Shown here: in pieces, positions 50,545-61,617 of the stretch
Layout: each line of letters begins with the position of its first letter
How positions within the stretch are numbered: position 1 is the stretch's first letter
DNA from: Faecalibacterium sp. HTF-F
GTDB taxonomy: Bacteria; Bacillota; Clostridia; Oscillospirales; Ruminococcaceae
DNA length: 64,000 nt
Assembly (NCBI RefSeq): GCF_023347535.1
Contig: NZ_CP094473.1
Location: forward strand, 1,364,001-1,428,000
Direction of reading: 5' to 3'
Program-made: the position numbers and the translations under genes
The notes under the pieces: generated by a model
Told to the model about the DNA's origin: nothing
The model's database searches: none
What the model saw: the letters and a program-made list of their open reading frames with translations, nothing else

Positions 50545-52530
50545 TTGGAACAACTGATCGACTTTCACGCACCGGAAGTGCAGGCGGTGCTGGATACACT
50601 TCTAAAAGACCGCTCCACCAGTAAAAACATCATCTGGGCCACCGACCCGCCGGAGGAACTGCAAACGGTGATGTACGAACCTGTCACGGATAGATCGCAG
50701 ATCACCACCCAGCAGCTCGGGCTGACCCACTACGAGGTGGTGCTGCCCCGGATGATGAAGCAGACCGACACCCAGCAGCAGCGCACCCGCAAAAAGGGCG
50801 AAGTATTCTCGCCCGCATGGGTCTGCAACAAGATGAACAACGCACTGGACGCCGACTGGTTCCGTGGGCTGGGGGCAGAGGAGAGCGCCGGGCAGTTCAC
50901 GGTGGAGCTGCCCCAAGGCTGGCAGACGGTAGAAACGCCGGTGCAGTTTCCGGTTTGCAAGGACAGGACCCCGGCATGGGTGCAGTATGTGCAGAGCCGC
51001 CGCTTGGAGGTGACCTGCGGCGAAGCCCCCTTTCTGGTGTCCCGGTACGATGCCGCCACCGGCGAGATGATCCCGGTAGCCCGGCGCATTGGCATTTTGG
51101 ACCGCAAGTTGCGGGTGGTAAGCGAGAACGCCGCCACAGAGGACGAGTGGCGCAAATATGCCACCCATGCGGTGCAGTCTACCTACGGCTATGAGTATCA
51201 GGGAGATAATCTTTTGCTGGCGCGGGTCAACCTGCTGCTGACCTATGCAGAGCATCTGCAAGCCCGGTGGCAGCGCAAACCCACAAAAGAGGAACTGCAA
51301 CCCATCGCCAACATCATCAGCTGGAACCTGTGGCAAATGGACGGCTTGCACCTGTCTGTGCCCGGCGGCAAGCCCCAGCCGGAGACAGAACAGCTTGACC
51401 TCTTTTCCATGTTCGGGGCGGCAGAGCCGCAGCCGCCAACGGTGTCCTGTAAAGTGAAAAACTGGCGCAAGGGCAGCCATGGAACCGCCCAGAACTTTGA
51501 AACCATTCAGGAAGGGAGTACCAGCATGAAGTTTGATTATGTTATCGGAAACCCGCCGTATCAGGATGAACGTCAAGGAACGAGTACAACAGCACTTCCA
51601 GTATATAATAATTTTATGGATGCTTCCTATAAAGTGGGAAGTTCGGTGATGCTGATTACCCCAGCTCGGTTTTTATTCAATGCAGGTCGAACACCAAAGC
51701 AATGGAATGAACAGATGCTCAATGATGAGCACCTGAAGGTTTTGTACTATGAAAAAGACGGTGAAAAAGTCTTTCCAAATACGGATATTAAAGGCGGCGT
51801 TGCAATTACATATCGTGACGAGAAACAATCTTATGGGGCAATAGGTACATTTACGATTTTTCCTGAACTGAATCTAATCTTGCGAAAGGTTAAAAATAAA
51901 ATCGTCAAAGGAAACAGTCTGGCAGATATCATGTTCGTAGCATCAAAGTTTAATACGAACACACTATTTGACGACTTCCCGATATACGCTGGACATGAGA
52001 GAAGAATGTCTAGTAATGTTTTGACCTTTGATTGTTTTCATGAGGTCGAAGAAGAAAATGACATTTCAGTTTATGGCATAGTAAAAGGAAAACGACAGCA
52101 TCGCTATATTAGTGCACGCTATGTTGATTTGACGGATACAAATATTGAACGCTACAAATTGATTCTTCCAAAAGCTGATGGAAACGGAACATTCGGCGAT
52201 ACATTGACAAATCCAGAGATTTTGCCGAAACGTTCAGGGTTTACGCATACATTTCTCGGCATTGGCAGCTTTATGACCGAGGTAGAAGCAAAAGCTGAAA
52301 TGAAATATGTGAAAACAAAGTTTGCAAGAGCACTTTTGGGAGTTTTGAAAGTAACTCAGGATAATAATGCTGATAAATGGAAATACGTCCCCCTTCAAGA
52401 CTTTACTGCCCATTCCGACATTGATTGGAGCAAGTCGGTGGCGGAGATCGACCAGCAGCTTTACCGCAAGTATGACCTGACTGCAGACGAGATCGAATTT
52501 ATCGAGACCCATGTAAAGGAGATGGCATAA
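50545..52530 (+). CDS. Eco57I-type N6-adenine methyltransferase subunit of a restriction-modification system
   Basis: A 661-residue DNA methyltransferase. RKKGEVFSPAWV (83-94) is like the motif X region; EVTCGEAPFLVSRYD (155-169) is an unusual motif I; and NPPY at 336-339 (FDYVIGNPPYQDE) is the N6-adenine catalytic motif IV. The central/C-terminal region (about 340-620) should be the target-recognition part. That stretch, DNA 51540-52400, is clearly more AT-rich than both ends, suggesting TRD replacement by recombination. It starts at ATG 50545 after an AGCGAGGG-like site. It overlaps the next gene by one base (TAATG). Confidence 0.85.
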   Translation: MEQLIDFHAPEVQAVLDTLLKDRSTSKNIIWATDPPEELQTVMYEPVTDRSQITTQQLGLTHYEVVLPRMMKQTDTQQQRTRKKGEVFSPAWVCNKMNNALDADWFRGLGAEESAGQFTVELPQGWQTVETPVQFPVCKDRTPAWVQYVQSRRLEVTCGEAPFLVSRYDAATGEMIPVARRIGILDRKLRVVSENAATEDEWRKYATHAVQSTYGYEYQGDNLLLARVNLLLTYAEHLQARWQRKPTKEELQPIANIISWNLWQMDGLHLSVPGGKPQPETEQLDLFSMFGAAEPQPPTVSCKVKNWRKGSHGTAQNFETIQEGSTSMKFDYVIGNPPYQDERQGTSTTALPVYNNFMDASYKVGSSVMLITPARFLFNAGRTPKQWNEQMLNDEHLKVLYYEKDGEKVFPNTDIKGGVAITYRDEKQSYGAIGTFTIFPELNLILRKVKNKIVKGNSLADIMFVASKFNTNTLFDDFPIYAGHERRMSSNVLTFDCFHEVEEENDISVYGIVKGKRQHRYISARYVDLTDTNIERYKLILPKADGNGTFGDTLTNPEILPKRSGFTHTFLGIGSFMTEVEAKAEMKYVKTKFARALLGVLKVTQDNNADKWKYVPLQDFTAHSDIDWSKSVAEIDQQLYRKYDLTADEIEFIETHVKEMA

Positions 52531-55500
52531 TGGCTGGCATAACCCTGCGCACTGCCCGGCAGGTGGTGCCCATGATCTACGCCTATACCACCCCGGAAAT
52601 TGCCCGGCACAACGGCTGGACGAAGATCGGCTACACCGAGCAATCGGTGGACAAACGCCTGAAACAGCAGACCCACACCGCCGATGTGCTGTTCCACGAG
52701 GAGTGGCGGGGCAATGCCGTCTACGATGACGGCAGCGGCGAGGTGTTCACCGACCACGATTTCCACGCCTACCTCCGCAAGCTGAACGTGGAGAACGACC
52801 GCAAAAACGAGTGGTTCCATCTGGATGGGCAGCAGTCCCGGCGGTATTTTCAGGATTTCCGCATGAACCGGGGCCGGGTGCAGCTGGATGCCGCCATCGC
52901 CTACACCCTGCGGGAGGAGCAGGCAAGGGCTGTCCACGACACCAAAATCTATTACCAGAGCCACCCCGGCGGGGAATACCTCTGGAACGCCAAGCCCCGC
53001 TTTGGCAAGACCCTTTCCGTCTACGATTTCTGCAAGCAGGTGGATGCACAGACGGTGCTCATCGTCACCAACCGCCCAGCCATCGCCAATAGCTGGTACA
53101 GCGACTATGTGCGCTTTCTGGGCAGGGAGTCCGGCTATCTGTTTGTCAGCCATGTGGATGCTCTTGCCGGGCAGCCCCATGTGCTGGACGAGCAGGGCTA
53201 TCTGGATGCCGCCGCACAGGGCGAGGAGCTGTATAAGCGCATTGAGTTCGTCAGCCTGCAGGACATGAAAGGCTCCAAGTATTTCGGCGGCGAGTACGAC
53301 AAGCTGCGCCACCTGACCGAGTTGAACTGGGATGTGCTGGTCATCGACGAAGCCCACGAGGGCGTGGACACCTACAAGACCGACCTTGCCTTTGACCGCA
53401 TCCGCCGCAAGTTCACGCTGCACCTGTCCGGTACGCCCTTCAAGGCACTGGCAAACGATAAGTTTGCCGGGGATGCCATCTTCAACTGGACCTACGCCGA
53501 CGAGCAGGCCGCCAAGCGGAACTGGCAGGGCGCACCGGGGCAGCAGAACCCCTACGCAAACCTCCCCATGCTCAACCTCTACACCTACCAGATGTCCGAG
53601 ATCATCCGGGACGAGATCCAGCGGGGCGTGGAGATCGACGGCGAAACGCAGGAATTTGCCTTTGACCTGAACGAGTTCTTCAAGGTGAAGCCCAGCGGCA
53701 GCTTTGAGCATGAGGCCGAGGTGGACCGCTTTCTGGATGCCATGACCACCCAGAACAAATTTCCGTTTTCCACCCCGGAGCTGCGTGCCGAACTGAAGCA
53801 CACCTTCTGGCTGCTGAACCGGGTGGACAGCGCCAGAGCGCTGGCGAAAAAGCTGCAGGCGCACCCGGTATTCCGGGACTATGAGGTGATCCTTGCCGCC
53901 GGTGACGGCAAGTTGGACGACACGGACGAGAACCAGAAGAGTTTTGACCGGGTAAAAGCCGCCATCGCACACCACGAAAAGACCATCACCCTGTCGGTGG
54001 GGCAGCTGACAACCGGTGTGACTATCCCGGAGTGGTCGGCGGTGCTGATGCTCTCCAACCTGAAAAGCCCAGCGCTGTATATGCAGGCGGCGTTCCGTGC
54101 CCAGAACCCCTGCCTTTTCCACGAAAATGGCACTTTCCGCCGCAAAGAGAACGCCTATGTGTTCGATTTTGACCCCGCCCGCACCCTGCTGATCTACGAG
54201 CAGTTCGCCAACGATCTTTCTCAGGACACCGCCAGCGGCAAGGGCGACACCGAGGAGCGCAAGGCGCACATCCAGAATCTGCTCAACTTCTTCCCGGTCA
54301 TCGGCGAGGACGAGGAAGGGGAGATGATCCCGCTGGATGCAGAAAAAGTCCTCAGCATCCCCCGGAAGATCAAGTCCAAAGAAGTGGTGCGGATGGGTTT
54401 CCAGAGCAATTTCCTGTTCCAGAACATTTCCAACGTGTTCAGTGCCCCGCAGGAGGTGCTGGACATTCTGCAAAACTTCCAGCCTATCAGCGAAGCCAAG
54501 GCAAAGCCCATCCAGATCACCCCGGACACCGGCGCAGACCTCTCCCTGAACGACAAGGGCGAGGTAGACCTGGACGAGGGTTACGTCATCGGCAAGGCAG
54601 CGGATGTGTTCGGGGCGAAGATCTACGAAAGCACCCCGGCGCTGGACACCGCCCTGCAAGACCTGACCGATGCCCCGGCTCCTGCCAAAGAAGAGCATCT
54701 GGAACCCCTGAAAAAGAGCATCACCAAGGAGATCATCACCCCCATGGTGGAGCAGGCAAAGCAGGAGTATGGCCGCGACCTGAAGCTGTCCGACCAGAAG
54801 CGGTTTGAGAGCGCCGCCAAAGCCAAGATGGACGTGGCGGTGAACAAGGTGGTGGACAACTACCGCATCGACCAGAGCCAGTTGGAGACCCAGCGTACCC
54901 AGCAGTTACAGAACTGCACCACCGCCCAGCAGCGCCAGCAGGTGAACCGGGAGTTTGACGCAAAGCAGCAGCAGAGCACCGCCGCCCTCATGGAGACGCT
55001 GCAAACCACCATCCAGCAGACGGCGCAGGAGATGCAGCAGACCATCGTGCGCACCGTGGAGACCAACCAGAAGGAGCAGGAGAAAAAGGGCTACGAGGAC
55101 ACCGTCCGTGACCATCTCCGGGGCTTCTCCCGCACCATCCCGTCCTTCCTCATGGCCTACGGCGACGAGACCGTGACACTGGCAAACTTTGACCGGATCA
55201 TCCCGGACAAGGTCTTTCAGGAGGTCACCAGCATTACGCTGGAACAGTTCCGCTTTTTGCGGGACGGTGGACCGTACATCAACCAGACTACCGGACAGGA
55301 GGAGCATTTTGCAGGTCACCTGTTCGACCCAGTGGTGTTTGACGATTCGGTGAAGGAGTTTCTGAACCTGAAGGTCAAGCTGGCGGATTACTTTGACGAG
55401 AGCCGCACCGAGGATATCTTCGATTACATCCCGCCCCAGAAAACCAACCAGATCTTCACCCCCAAGTGGGTGGTGAAAAAGATGGTGGACTTGCTGGAAC

Positions 55501-55838
55501 AGGAAAACCCCGGCTGCTTCGATGACCCCGGCAAGACCTTCCTGGACCCCTACATGAAGTCCGGCCTGTACATTACGGAAATCGTCAAGCGCCTTTACCG
55601 CAGCGAGAAGATGCGGCAAGCCTTCCCGGACGATAACGCCCGGCTGGAACATATCTTTGCCAAGCAGGTCTATGGCCTTGCTCCGACCGAGATCATCTAC
55701 CGTATTGCCATCAGCTACATTCTGGGCTTTGCAAAGGGTCACGGCATCACCGCCCACCATATCCGTCAGGCGGATACGCTGGAATTTGCCAAGGCGGGCA
55801 CCATGGAAAGGGAACTAGATAAGATTTTCAGAGACTGA
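52530..55838 (+). CDS. GIY-YIG nuclease-SF2 helicase restriction protein
   Basis: An 1102-residue protein likely to be the restriction subunit. Residues ~15-100 form a GIY-YIG/T5orf172-type nuclease (IYAYTTPE...GWTKIGYTEQSVDKR, then E in SGEVF). An SF2 helicase follows: Walker A RFGKT (157-161), DEAH (273-276), SGTP (300-303) and a second lobe around GQLTTGVTIPEWS and QAAFRAQNP (about 490-530). After a glutamine-rich helical linker (~800-870), the C-terminus (about 985-1090) again looks like a methyltransferase N-terminal half: FTPKWVVKKMVD and FLDPYMKSGLYI (degenerate motif I), without NPPY. Coupled to the methyltransferase by TAATG. Confidence 0.82.
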   Translation: MAGITLRTARQVVPMIYAYTTPEIARHNGWTKIGYTEQSVDKRLKQQTHTADVLFHEEWRGNAVYDDGSGEVFTDHDFHAYLRKLNVENDRKNEWFHLDGQQSRRYFQDFRMNRGRVQLDAAIAYTLREEQARAVHDTKIYYQSHPGGEYLWNAKPRFGKTLSVYDFCKQVDAQTVLIVTNRPAIANSWYSDYVRFLGRESGYLFVSHVDALAGQPHVLDEQGYLDAAAQGEELYKRIEFVSLQDMKGSKYFGGEYDKLRHLTELNWDVLVIDEAHEGVDTYKTDLAFDRIRRKFTLHLSGTPFKALANDKFAGDAIFNWTYADEQAAKRNWQGAPGQQNPYANLPMLNLYTYQMSEIIRDEIQRGVEIDGETQEFAFDLNEFFKVKPSGSFEHEAEVDRFLDAMTTQNKFPFSTPELRAELKHTFWLLNRVDSARALAKKLQAHPVFRDYEVILAAGDGKLDDTDENQKSFDRVKAAIAHHEKTITLSVGQLTTGVTIPEWSAVLMLSNLKSPALYMQAAFRAQNPCLFHENGTFRRKENAYVFDFDPARTLLIYEQFANDLSQDTASGKGDTEERKAHIQNLLNFFPVIGEDEEGEMIPLDAEKVLSIPRKIKSKEVVRMGFQSNFLFQNISNVFSAPQEVLDILQNFQPISEAKAKPIQITPDTGADLSLNDKGEVDLDEGYVIGKAADVFGAKIYESTPALDTALQDLTDAPAPAKEEHLEPLKKSITKEIITPMVEQAKQEYGRDLKLSDQKRFESAAKAKMDVAVNKVVDNYRIDQSQLETQRTQQLQNCTTAQQRQQVNREFDAKQQQSTAALMETLQTTIQQTAQEMQQTIVRTVETNQKEQEKKGYEDTVRDHLRGFSRTIPSFLMAYGDETVTLANFDRIIPDKVFQEVTSITLEQFRFLRDGGPYINQTTGQEEHFAGHLFDPVVFDDSVKEFLNLKVKLADYFDESRTEDIFDYIPPQKTNQIFTPKWVVKKMVDLLEQENPGCFDDPGKTFLDPYMKSGLYITEIVKRLYRSEKMRQAFPDDNARLEHIFAKQVYGLAPTEIIYRIAISYILGFAKGHGITAHHIRQADTLEFAKAGTMERELDKIFRD

Positions 55839-56327: not shown

Positions 56328-56800
56328 AATCGTCCGGTACTTCACAAAAGGTACTTCTGTAATTCGCAGCCCGGCCATAACGAAGGCGGGGTGGCTGAAA
56401 TGCCAATGGTGCGGTGCAAGCCCGCCGCCGGACGATTCCCCACTCCTAGGGTGCCGAGGGCGAATATGGGAGACCTTAACATATTAAGCAGACCAGTGTG
56501 CTGATCTGCAATTGAGAGGACTGGCGAATACGCTGGTTCTCGATACATATTGAAGCCGGACGAGCTGTTCTTCTGGACAGCTTGCCCGGTGCAGGAGTGC
56601 AGAGGACGCAGTTCTTTGCCCCAGTGATATGATGCTGTGCGTCATATCCTACTAGGTATTATCTGGCGCAAAACGGCGGCAGATCCAGCAGCTCCACTGC
56701 TGCGTTCTCCCACGCCAAGCTGTTGAAATGAAAGAAGCTCCTGCTAAACCTTATACCAAAATCAGGAAAAAGTAATCAAAACGGGTTCACCTAGGGGCCA
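56328..56800. ncRNA. Candidate large structured RNA region
   Basis: Dense base-pairing in a gene-free region. AATCGTCCGG (56328-56337) pairs with CCGGACGATT (56428-56437), enclosing smaller hairpins. GCCGG..AGCTGT / ACAGCT..CCGG (about 56554-56590) and GATATGA/TCATATC (about 56625-56650) follow. The size (about 470 bases) and mobile-element location recall large ornate RNAs, but no family could be identified by eye, and the strand is not certain. Confidence 0.35.
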
Positions 56801-57259: not shown

Positions 57260-58489
57260 CTGAAATTAACACGACACAACGGACGAGCCGGAACCCACGG
57301 CACTTACAACCCCAAGCACAACGACCGCAGTTTCAATCTTGCCAACAGTGAGCACATCGACCCGGAACGAGCCAAAGGCAACATCTACTGGGACTGCTTC
57401 CACGGCTTCCGATCGGCTCTCAATCCGCAAGACCCGGACGATCTGGGGGCGACCTTCTCGGATGTGGAACGGCAATTCTATGAGAGCCGCTATTCCAACT
57501 TTGTGGAAAGCCAGAACGAGCGCAACGCCAAGATCCGGCACACGGAGCGCAACCGCTCCATTCTTGACCTGCTGTCCAGCCGCAAGACCTGCCCGGAAGA
57601 GACCATCTACCAACTTGGAACGTTGGATGAACACGCTTCGGCAGAGGACTTGCTGAGCGTCGTCACAGAGTTCATCGAGGAGTTCAAGGCCAAGTATAGC
57701 GACCACGTTCATGTGCTGGACTGGGCGCTGCATCTGGATGAAAGCACACCGCATATCCATGAGCGTCATGTATTCGACTGCGAGAACAAATACGGCGAGG
57801 TGGCACCCCAGCAGGAAAAGGCATTGGAAGCATTGGGCTTCGACCTGCCTGACCCAAACAAGCCTCTCAGCCGCCGCAACAACCGCAAGATCGCCTTTGA
57901 TGCCGCCTGCCGGAAAATGCTGTTCGAGATTGCAAAACGGCACGGGCTGGAACTGGAGGAAGAAGCGGAGTACGGAAACCGCAAATATCTGGAAAAGCAG
58001 GATTTCATCCTTGCCAAGCAGAAGGAGCGGCTTGCCGCCCAGCAGAACAAGCTGGACAAGCTGACCCTGAAAGTTTCGGACATGGAGACCCTGCTGGAAG
58101 ATGTTTCGGCTGCGGCCTATGACAAGGCGGTGGAGGTCGTGACCGACGTGGTGCGCACCGAGACCCGCAAGGAGGATATGCGGATGATCGAGGACACGAA
58201 GAAGTGGGTGCTGTCCCCGGAGCGCAAGGCTCCGCAGGCCACGAGAGAATACGCCGCCCGTCGGTTGGATACCGTGCTGGACAAGTTCCTCAAGACCATG
58301 CAGACCACTGCCACTCGCTTGCAGGAAAAACTCCTGAGACCGGAAATCCGGCAGAAAGGCAAGGAACAGGTCAAGGAGAAAGCACGGGATTCCGTTTTGC
58401 AACTGCTAAGCCGATTGCAGGCAGAGCAGACACAGCGGAAGCCATCTGTCCCGCCTACCGCCGAAAAGTCAGAAAATCGTTTTCAATAA
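57260..58489 (+). CDS. MobV/Pre-type relaxase (plasmid recombination enzyme-like)
   Basis: A protein of about 409 residues. The relaxase motif HxDExxPHxH is present (HLDESTPHIH, about 158-167). The N-terminal LTRHNGRAGTHGTYNPKHNDRSF stretch is the expected family start. It begins immediately after codon 57260, which is CTG; no ATG, GTG or TTG lies in frame before a stop until ATG 57464, which would cut the domain. AGAGGGA at 57246-57252 gives 7-base spacing to the CTG, so that is the probable start (with reduced efficiency) or a mutated ATG. A coiled-coil tail follows the catalytic domain. Confidence 0.8.
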   Translation: MKLTRHNGRAGTHGTYNPKHNDRSFNLANSEHIDPERAKGNIYWDCFHGFRSALNPQDPDDLGATFSDVERQFYESRYSNFVESQNERNAKIRHTERNRSILDLLSSRKTCPEETIYQLGTLDEHASAEDLLSVVTEFIEEFKAKYSDHVHVLDWALHLDESTPHIHERHVFDCENKYGEVAPQQEKALEALGFDLPDPNKPLSRRNNRKIAFDAACRKMLFEIAKRHGLELEEEAEYGNRKYLEKQDFILAKQKERLAAQQNKLDKLTLKVSDMETLLEDVSAAAYDKAVEVVTDVVRTETRKEDMRMIEDTKKWVLSPERKAPQATREYAARRLDTVLDKFLKTMQTTATRLQEKLLRPEIRQKGKEQVKEKARDSVLQLLSRLQAEQTQRKPSVPPTAEKSENRFQ

Positions 58490-58508: not shown

Positions 58509-59928
58509 TTGAGCAAAGAAGTCAACGAAGAACGTACTCCCAGAACCGTTGAAGATGTGAAAGAGATGCTGACCAAGCACTCCAACGGAGAGATCCAGCG
58601 GACGATCCAAAACTGCATCACGATTTTGCAGAATGACCATGTGCTTGCCGATGCCATCCGGCTGAACCTGTTGAGCGAGCGCATTGACATTGTAAAGCCC
58701 GTGGGCTGGCCGAGATCTGGCAAGACGCTGAACGACACCGATATGAAGTATATCCTGCGGCGAATGGAGAAGTACGGCATCTCCAGCGAAAAGAAAATCG
58801 AATCTGCTATCCGTATTGTTGCAAACGAGAACCGCTACCATCCCATCCGAGATTACCTGAACGGCCTGCAATGGGACGGCACGGAACGGATAGCCCACGT
58901 CTTGCACCATTTTCTCGGTGCTGCGGAGGACGAGTACACTTGCGAAGCCATGAAGATCTTCTTGCTGGGAGCCATCAAGCGAGTATTCCAACCGGGATGC
59001 AAGTTTGAAACTATGCTCTGTCTGGTGGGTGGGCAAGGGTGCGGGTCGCCAGTGGCGACCTCAAAATGCTGCAAGCATTTTGAAGCACCGACCGAGCCGA
59101 CAGGCGAGACCGGGGAAGTCCACCTTTTTTCGACTGCTGGCCGTTAAGGACGAGTGGTTCTCGGACGACCTGCGGCGACTGGACGACGACAACGTGTACC
59201 GCAAACTGCAAGGACACTGGATCATCGAAATGTCGGAGATGATTGCCACCGCCAACGCCAAGAGCATCGAGGAGATCAAGAGCTTTCTCAGCAAGCAGAA
59301 GGAAACCTATAAAGTCCCCTACGAGACCCATCCTGCCGACCGTCTGCGCCAGTGCGTCTTTGCTGGCACGACCAATCGGCAAGATTTTTTGCCCCGTGAC
59401 CGCACGGGCAACCGCCGCTTTATCCCTGTCCCAGTGGATGCGGAACTGGCCGAGGTGCACATTCTGGACAACGAGGAAGATTCCCGCACCTATATCGACC
59501 AGCTCTGGGCAGAAGCTATGACCATCTACAACAGAGGCAACTACAAGCTGGCGTTCAGCCCCGCTATGCAGGAAACGCTGCAAGCCCACCAACAGGACTT
59601 CATGCAGGAGGATGCGCAGGCTGGCATGATCTACGCCTTTCTGGAGGACTACACGGGTGACCGGGTGTGTTCCAAGCAGCTTTACGCGGAAGCACTGGGC
59701 AACACCAACATTCCGGCAGAATGGGAGACTCGTGCTATCTGCGAGATCATGAATACGGGAATTTCGCGCGGCGATATCCAAGGCTGGCAGGCGCACAAGA
59801 CCGCCAAGCGTTACCTGAAGTACGGCGTTCAGAAAGGCTGGGAGCGCGTAACCAGCCCCGAAACCGGGGCTGAAAATTTCTCTGAAATAATGGATGCGGA
59901 AGCCCAGCAGATGGGCTTTCCCTTCTGA
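58509..59928 (+). pseudogene. VirE-like P-loop ATPase gene interrupted by a 70-bp insert (possible bypass)
   Basis: A virulence-associated E (VirE/D5-like ATPase) family protein, about 449 residues if the insert is removed. The first frame starts at TTG 58509 after GAGGTGA and reads to ...LVGGQGCG (59045), then runs into the insert and stops at 59147. The second frame resumes at AAGTCCACC (KST) and continues with FFRLLAVKDEWFSDDL to 59928. Removing the 70 bases restores a complete Walker A GGQGCGKST. Such proteins often act in replication of mobile elements. Either the gene is dead, or the insert is skipped. Confidence 0.8.
59046..59115 (+). repeat. 70-bp two-hairpin insert in the VirE P-loop
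   Basis: The insert lies exactly between the glycine codon GGG (59043-59045) and AAG TCC of the P-loop. It contains TCGCC-AGT-GGCGA (59046-59058) and a 9-bp hairpin TCAAAATGC/GCATTTTGA (59061-59083). Its last three bases are again GGG, in the frame of the downstream part. Length 70 = 3n+1 accounts for the frame change. Confidence 0.8.
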
Positions 59929-60462: not shown

Positions 60463-61617
60463 ATGTCTGAAAAGCGCAAAGATAGCAAGGGTCGTGTTTT
60501 GAAGGATGGCGAAAGCCAAAGAGCAAACGGCACCTACGACTATCGTTATACCGATATCCACAAGAAACGGCGTTGTATTTACGCTAAATCCCTGACAGAG
60601 CTGCGGAAAAAAGAGGAAGAACTGTGGCGCGATCTGGCAGACGGCATCGACTACGTCGCCGGAGAGATGACGGTGGCTGATCTGGTTGACCGCTATATGA
60701 ACCTGAAACGTGGGTTGAAACCCAATTCACTTCGGTCGTACAACACAGCGGTCAAGCGGATTCATGCTGACCCTTTCGGGCAAAAAGCCATCAAAACGGT
60801 AAAATTGTCCGATGCGAAAGGCTGGTTCGTGTTTCTGCATGACAGCGGTTTCAAGCAAAACACCATAGGAATCCTGCAAAGCGTTGTCAGACCGGCATTC
60901 GAGATGGCGGTAGAGGATGACATTATCCGCAAGAATCCATTCAAGTTCAAACTGTCCGATGTTGTGCCGAAGGACGCTTATGTGCGTGATGCACTGACCA
61001 GAGAGCAGCAGGAGAAATATCTGCAATTCGTTCAGGACTATGGCGGCAACTATTATGATGATATCGTCATTCTTATGGGAACCGGCTTGCGCGTGAGCGA
61101 GTTGTACGGCCTGACACGAGCAGATATCGACTTTGAACGGCACTGCATCCATGTGCGGCGGCAGCTTTGCCGGACGGCTGAAAAGCCCTACTTCGTCACG
61201 CCGCCGAAAACCAAAAGCGGCATCCGCAATGTTCCCATGACGGATACTGTTCGAGCAGCGCTGTTGCGTGTGGTAAAAGCCAGAGCATCTACGAAGGTGG
61301 AAGCACTAGTGGATGGTTGCAGCGGATTTCTCTTTCTGGACAAGTCCGGAATGCCGAAGGTGGCAATGCACTTGGAAAACTATATGCGTGGTGTGCAGGG
61401 AAAGTTTGAGAAGGCGTACGGAAAACCTGTTCCGCGCATTACACCTCATGTGCTGCGACACACCTTCTGCACCAATGTTCAGCAGGCCGGGCTGGATGTA
61501 AAAAGCCTGCAATACCTGATGGGACACTCTAATGCCAGTGTGACGTTGGATGTCTACACGCACAGCAGCTTTGAATCGGTTGAAAGGGCCTTTGAACAGA
61601 TCGCCGGCAACCTGTGA
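60463..61617 (+). CDS. Tyrosine-family site-specific integrase (Tn916 Int-like)
   Basis: A 384-residue integrase. N-terminal Tn916-like arm-binding domain (DSKGRVLKDGESQRANGTYDYRY), SAM-like core-binding domain (about 68-160) and catalytic domain with R210 (GTGLRVSEL), H329/R332 (HVLRH), H355 (GHSN) and nucleophile Y365 (DVYTH). All catalytic residues are present, so it should be active. It lies about 200 bases from attR, with the TTACGCC arm repeats just after its stop. The target, inferred from the att repeats, is the groEL 3' end. Confidence 0.95.
   Translation: MSEKRKDSKGRVLKDGESQRANGTYDYRYTDIHKKRRCIYAKSLTELRKKEEELWRDLADGIDYVAGEMTVADLVDRYMNLKRGLKPNSLRSYNTAVKRIHADPFGQKAIKTVKLSDAKGWFVFLHDSGFKQNTIGILQSVVRPAFEMAVEDDIIRKNPFKFKLSDVVPKDAYVRDALTREQQEKYLQFVQDYGGNYYDDIVILMGTGLRVSELYGLTRADIDFERHCIHVRRQLCRTAEKPYFVTPPKTKSGIRNVPMTDTVRAALLRVVKARASTKVEALVDGCSGFLFLDKSGMPKVAMHLENYMRGVQGKFEKAYGKPVPRITPHVLRHTFCTNVQQAGLDVKSLQYLMGHSNASVTLDVYTHSSFESVERAFEQIAGNL

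Follow-up and report, generated by a model that had tools for sequence, protein, structure and literature searches.

A VapE-like ATPase gene of Faecalibacterium sp. HTF-F raises the question of what 70 additional bases are doing inside its P-loop, and whether the gene can still yield its protein. In the window, by which we mean the whole 64,000-nt stretch of DNA analysed, this gene is a component of an integrative element, and its Pfam VapE-like_dom (217 positions) is interrupted by 70 nt between profile positions 63 and 64. The original prediction had noticed these bases and offered two readings, a coding gap like that of phage T4 gene 60 and a tiny mobile palindromic element with a 3-bp target duplication. 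The extra bases were confirmed and lie between two parts of one Pfam domain (Table 1), and we consider it highly probable that they mark a non-autonomous, mobile palindromic element that invades genes, resembles the RPEs of Rickettsia, and breaks VapE in the window.

The interrupted gene, its insert and insert-free alleles

Table 1. Features of the interrupted VapE-like gene and its surroundings, in window coordinates.
Feature	Position	Strand	Evidence or remark
Empty counterpart of 'type 1' site	56553..56640	+	Same hairpin holds the element in five related loci (L056, L060-L063)
VapE-like ATPase gene, upstream half	58509..59147	+	212-aa ORF through insert to stop; PF05272 positions 1-63, E 5.8e-19
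Palindromic element, full-length match to covariance model R1	59038..59112	+	88.3 bits; window copy is one of the model's 20 source sequences
Stem P1, 5' strand (GGTGC)	59038..59042	+	Pairs with 59085-59089
Hairpin A (GGTCGCC-AGT-GGCGACC)	59044..59060	+	Fold and covariation
Net 70 nt absent from insert-free alleles	59046..59115	+	Allele comparison
Hairpin B (TCAAAATGC ... GCATTTTGA), variable, compensating arm	59061..59083	+	Fold and covariation
Stem P1, 3' strand (GCACC)	59085..59089	+	Fold and covariation
Conserved tail GACCGAGCCGACAGGCGAGACC	59090..59111	+	Includes small hairpin C (59096-59105)
VapE-like gene, downstream half, other frame, open	59116..59928	+	PF05272 positions 64-216, E 2.8e-47
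Tn916-type tyrosine integrase	60463..61617	+	PF00589, PF02920

Both halves of the gene are open, with 178 codons upstream and 270 downstream, the latter in agreement with an earlier impression that the downstream half looked intact. Past the insert edge, the upstream frame continues for 33 more codons until a stop at 59145. The window protein is truncated because the inserted element is out of frame, its length not being a multiple of three, and we infer that VapE function was lost in this copy; an insert-free VapE is encoded elsewhere in the same genome as a 449-aa ORF. Compared with 12 other alleles, the window gene has 8 synonymous and 0 nonsynonymous private changes in its upstream half and 11 synonymous and 4 nonsynonymous changes in its downstream half (4 vs 0 nonsynonymous, Fisher p 0.26), a pattern that fits a recent insertion and does not decide function. 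The Tn916-type integrase is presumed to be part of the integrative element that holds the split gene. The gene directly upstream (57464-58489) gave no Pfam, PADLOC or NCBIfam match, and two large ORFs at 50545-55838 have PADLOC matches to a type II methyltransferase and, less strongly, to a type IIG restriction enzyme-methyltransferase, with no NCBIfam match.

The insert folds at -39.5 kcal/mol (z -3.1; 1 of 200 shuffles was as good), and the two hairpins described at the outset were recovered together with a third, closing stem, so that stem P1, hairpin A and hairpin B meet in a three-way junction, which is followed by the tail GACCGAGCCGACAGGCGAGA. Across 20 copies, 99.1% of cells are paired and the covariation score is 0.298, compared with 0.103 in shuffles (0 of 500 reached it) and at most 0.064 when the structure is slid along the alignment, a comparison that favours the structure insofar as it was derived from the same 20 sequences. 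Full-length matches are mostly 52-85 nt long, two weak matches in genomes of the order being longer, and the element has no gene of its own. Sixteen of 67 distinct copies are free of stop codons in all six frames, as against 4.7% of mononucleotide shuffles; the window copy has a stop in one of the six. A search of window positions 58800-59400 against 4227 Rfam families with E up to 10 found no match, and at the gathering score the element was likewise unmatched in three loci that carry it (L003, L006 and L010). The sole match there is an FMN riboswitch elsewhere in L010, which adjoins a non-coding copy of the element (L010:1243-1357).

Nineteen related loci were given for allele comparison and 16 could be placed (L062-L064 yielded none); none of the 16 has an insert at the P-loop, which reads GGQG-A/V/T-GK in 15 of them. 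The original P-loop had been taken to be GGQGCGKST, split between matching GGG codons, and the insert-free alleles revise this reading: they read GGQG-A/V/T-GK, so the GGQGCGKST motif with its matching codons owes part of its sequence to the 5' end of the element. The left GGG-TGC-GGG is that 5' end, and GGTGCGGG or a near variant of it occurs at most element sites; the second GGG is native sequence. The mobile palindromic element itself gained support, and its proposed 3-bp target duplication is not demonstrable, as the borders overlap native G/C bases in the filled and empty pairs that we compared for a target-site duplication. The 16th placed allele (L057, G016:C8) is insert-free yet frameshifted at the same place in the P-loop, which could have been left behind by excision of an element or have arisen independently by slippage, and another insert-free allele (L061) has a different frameshift farther downstream.

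A dispersed family in Clostridia

A search for the insert with a 101-bp query gave 13 matches in 9 of 31 genomes of the genus, the window's own included, and the window's genome holds a second copy. The family recurs in the genus and throughout the order; the P-loop copy is present in 1 of the 31 genus genomes only, that of the window. Apart from the window, the Faecalibacterium copies lie in three contexts. One is a hairpin upstream of the gene preceding VapE in related integrative elements, the 'type 1' site, which lies some 1.5-2 kb ahead of VapE in those stretches that include this gene and is empty in the window. The other two are hairpin contexts elsewhere, whose outer hairpin also exists in element-free versions, and filled and empty versions of the same hairpin sites were found. 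A pattern search of the genus added ten places, all of unrelated sequence, and a pattern search of the window's own genome for bare outer hairpins found none.

Beyond the genus, blastn found diverged copies in 32 of 396 genomes of the family, and a covariance model (R1) built from 20 copies found matches in 35 of the 396 (27 of 126 genera) and in 40 of 394 genomes of the order (30 of 168 genera), the family and order draws overlapping. Six genomes (G153, G319, G434, G648, G698 and G728) have at least 12 matches each. Of 95 model matches we inspected 78, after setting aside 12 genus copies, one duplicate (L203) and four weak matches, and many of these 78 lie in the loops of larger hairpin repeats or between genes. 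Several copies sit inside larger repeats, whose own dispersal may account for part of the family's spread. An exact strict pattern run over named species genomes found six stretches, all in Faecalibacterium. Two Ruminococcus phage records carry a diverged copy, and the one examined matches the covariance model; phage records gave three weak matches, plasmid records gave none, and two pattern scans of viral contigs found no match. The family, with its structure and its copies in many genera, is established by these results, and it is most likely mobile, as judged from sequence.

Two further observations concern the hairpins in which copies reside. The motif CCCTTTGGCACACGACTTTGC, allowing up to 3 mismatches, occurs in 19 of the 31 genus genomes (L093-L122), mostly as a hairpin arm; the loops that go with it are of many kinds and include the element. 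Ahead of the gene that precedes VapE, L061:3038-3440 (and similarly L051, L053 and L059) contains a row of different hairpins, several of them followed by a GTAAC motif, which resembles a repeat array or an origin of transfer.

Copies inside genes and the proteins that carry them

By reading ORFs on both sides of the copies, a selection rather than an exhaustive scan, we chose 20 genic copies in sense orientation. They interrupt genes for VapE, a C5-methylase, ParA, TnpV, a relaxase, a topoisomerase, a KIACWG protein (three loci) and an unnamed protein, of which Pfam supports TnpV, the relaxase, the DNA methylase, ParA-type AAA_31 and the topoisomerase; one interrupted gene without a Pfam match presumably encodes a ParM-like protein. 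In TnpV, a first site is occupied in seven loci (two of them also lacking the gene middle) and a second site in one. An ORF beside a methylase-like gene contains two inserts and has no Pfam match; L307:128-1216 (G648) is one ORF with two in-frame copies about 130 nt apart. In L247 and L274 (G310), the element lies between the two known TnpV insertion sites and the gene middle is missing, as if the gene had arisen by recombination between two copies. A single antisense interruption, in ParA (L259, with a twin copy in L294), was counted against the sense bias. Pfam found no family in 20 other open runs adjoining copies, half of them antisense and half sense, and on that account we claim no further interrupted genes.

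The element is free of stops in the gene's frame in 19 of the 20 sense copies. Its length is a multiple of three in 12 of 20 (p 0.013 against one third), with TnpV, the relaxase, the C5-methylase, ParA and the topoisomerase among the hosts of these frame-keeping copies. Counted by site, 8 of the 12 in sense include a copy that keeps the frame (p 0.019). Its first base occupies the second codon position at 10 of these 12 sites and the first position at the other two (p 0.0005 against one third, taking for each site the commonest value among its copies). Among single copies, the first base occupies codon positions 2, 1 and 3 in 15, 4 and 1 cases. The eight out-of-frame copies, the window's included, share this codon-phase bias, which selection for being in frame does not explain. 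In 19 of 20 sense copies the left border begins with the codon GGG or GGC, the remaining copy having TGG, and 11 of 13 sites, with the antisense site counted, are both sense and at a glycine codon, compared with 22.3% of matching pentamers so placed in a set of 219 long ORFs from the loci analysed (p 3e-6); glycine presence before insertion was examined in VapE and TnpV. The p values for codon phase and for sense sites at a glycine codon are optimistic because the sites were found by reading. The phase that follows the element takes each of the three values, in 12, 4 and 4 of the 20 copies. Complete ORFs run through the insert in TnpV (159 aa), the relaxase (475 aa), the C5-methylase (509 aa) and the two-insert ORF (362 aa), and these in-frame ORFs are probably translated as protein through the element.

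A search with the 212-aa window ORF returned 828 proteins, and among the best 120 of these, all metagenome proteins, 35 have the insert at the same residue, 51 have a free P-loop and 34 have neither. The insertion recurs at the P-loop of homologs, as the proposed check had asked, and 35 of 120 is not a prevalence figure because candidates were restricted to 0.55-1.75 times the query length, which excluded full-length insert-free proteins. The best insert-bearing protein from other assemblies is 99% identical over 98% of the query. The P-loop inserts form two subtypes with different right borders, a K-type (15 proteins) continuing as ETG(E/K)V in 14 and as ETREV in one, and an R-type (20 proteins) continuing as ET(R/W/Q)(E/G)S in 17, where the codons following the border vary in the manner of insert-free alleles. 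Of 14 further hits that we read from the best 120 of 4704, six have the insert in a long ORF that regains the frame behind it, and by eye the Walker A pattern is kept in none of these six. A tree of VapE fragments requires 17 changes for 23 insert-bearing rows among 118 and says little, with 59 of its 91 inner branches unresolved. Four VapE fragments (P0043, P0099, P0106 and P0114) have swapped N-termini joined to the same insert-bearing middle and may represent recombination or chimeric assemblies.

For TnpV, 7982 of 8000 scored proteins were hits, and among the best 120 of them 53 have an insert of exactly 21 residues and 67 have none, counts to be read with the query itself insert-bearing, so that the ranking favours insert-bearing hits, and with a protein list that contains in-frame cases only. 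The 53 insert-bearing hits listed contain 21 different peptides. On a tree built without the insert columns, in which 53 of 117 inner branches lack resolution, as few as 4 state changes are needed, which suggests that insert-bearing TnpV has been inherited in frame. In total, 94 insert-bearing proteins were found among the matches listed, 53 of TnpV and 41 of VapE.

Competing explanations and related systems

The near-constant left border invites the reading that the ribosome leaves at the left glycine codon and resumes behind the element, as in the programmed translational bypassing of T4 gene 60 or of mitochondrial byps, both of which are described in the portions of PMC5009743 available to us. 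The resemblance lies in a short structured insert within a gene and a glycine codon at its left edge. Downstream halves that are open, in the window as in the majority of other copies, the excess of sense sites with a glycine codon over the baseline, and private changes that are mainly synonymous in the window gene (8 of 8 upstream, 11 of 15 downstream) would all agree with it, and a bacterial counterpart of mobile bypassing elements, in which even out-of-frame copies leave the protein intact, would explain the sense orientation and near-fixed codon phase regardless of frame. We nevertheless regard bypassing as very improbable, and the existence of such a bacterial counterpart as equally hard to credit. 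The T4-style stop beside the take-off site is absent, the three phases behind the element leave no common landing codon or frame, and the GGG/GGG borders of the window copy are, by eye, missing from most other genic copies. Under bypassing, the enrichment of in-frame copies would be needless and the frame regained by other changes in metagenomic VapE alleles superfluous. Insert-bearing TnpV proteins are frequent and diverged, with a translated segment conserved at exactly 21 residues in every insert-bearing hit listed, all from the in-frame protein list. Non-coding copies are equally structured, and the glycine codon comes partly from the element's own G's. The coding-gap reading of the original prediction is therefore not upheld.

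We find it unlikely, if a good deal more plausible than bypassing, that the window insert was copied by template switching, with GGTGCGGG as the short homology and a hairpin in a related integrative element as the source, the family spreading mainly by such copying and recombination and having no dedicated mobility. Several insert-free VapE alleles have GGTGCGGG at the insertion site, as the element does, the window insert is like the 'type 1' copies in its tail and in lacking an extra T, and the Faecalibacterium copies are few and, apart from the window, confined to three fixed contexts. Against this, similar borders recur across many genera at sites unrelated to one another, the right borders differ between subtypes, and the multicopy genomes suggest real mobility. 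Removal at the RNA level as a tiny intron would suit the nearly fixed codon phase at the 5' border, but the right border would have to shift by 0, 1 or 2 nt from case to case and no Rfam family matches, which leaves it scarcely credible. An assembly or sequencing error, raised earlier as a possible refutation, could be suspected from the P-loop copy being confined to one genus genome, but that genome is a single contig, and other assemblies encode almost identical protein fragments in which the insert occupies the same residue; we judge an error to be the most remote of these explanations.

A mobile element that invades genes remains the reading we prefer. An enzyme supplied in trans would move the element, which would enter DNA beside G-rich sites; the genic copies are nearly always sense, at one codon phase, with glycine as the first left-border codon. 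Copies that keep the frame would persist as peptide inserts of about 21-25 residues, being open as peptide because the element seldom contains stop codons, and the others would break the gene.

In-frame selfish palindromes are best known from Rickettsia. According to excerpts of PMC2229807 and PMC10969869, RPEs (Ogata et al. 2000) are short palindromic, non-autonomous and Rickettsia-specific elements of 105-146 bp (about 150 bp) that occur between and within genes and contribute an in-frame peptide to unrelated proteins, and for Gmk of Rickettsia the former describes an RPE-bearing product that is made and active. Compared by description, the present element is similarly dispersed in intergenic and coding DNA and open in the host gene's frame, although the window copy itself is not in frame; it differs in its mostly shorter length, its three-way junction, its occurrence in an order of Clostridia, and the largely mobile-element origin of the genes it interrupts. 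By analogy, it would work like an RPE without being filed as one. Other intragenic MITEs (ERIC/RU-1 and the 107-bp Correia element) are likewise small repeats whose open frames are joined in frame to genes, as the part of PMC2229807 consulted describes, but their terminal inverted repeats and target-site duplication are not evident here.

The element also has features in common with other groups of mobile DNA. REP/RAYT and IS200/IS605-type elements are short hairpins with no obvious target duplication and constant bases on one side, a description that fits the element as well. By eye, its copies do not show the GTAG/CGTC tag that a portion of PMC3733652 gives for REP/RAYT-type elements. We rejected another candidate on inspection. 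IS607-like insertion leaves GG on both sides, and the right border of the element, viewed by eye, has no constant GG.

The literature searched contained no recognised account of this element family. A shorter and differently built family in gut bacteria would make the phenomenon of in-frame palindromes more general, and it poses the question of why this codon phase is used. Repeated insertion at the same residues, together with natural pairs of insert-free and insert-bearing TnpV and VapE, provides material for testing what such inserts do. For annotation, segments like GCGCPVDTSAEGRSTDRAGRRD in mobile-element proteins should be regarded as element-derived; an example of a peptide predicted from insert-bearing TnpV or relaxase is GCGCPVDTSAEGR.
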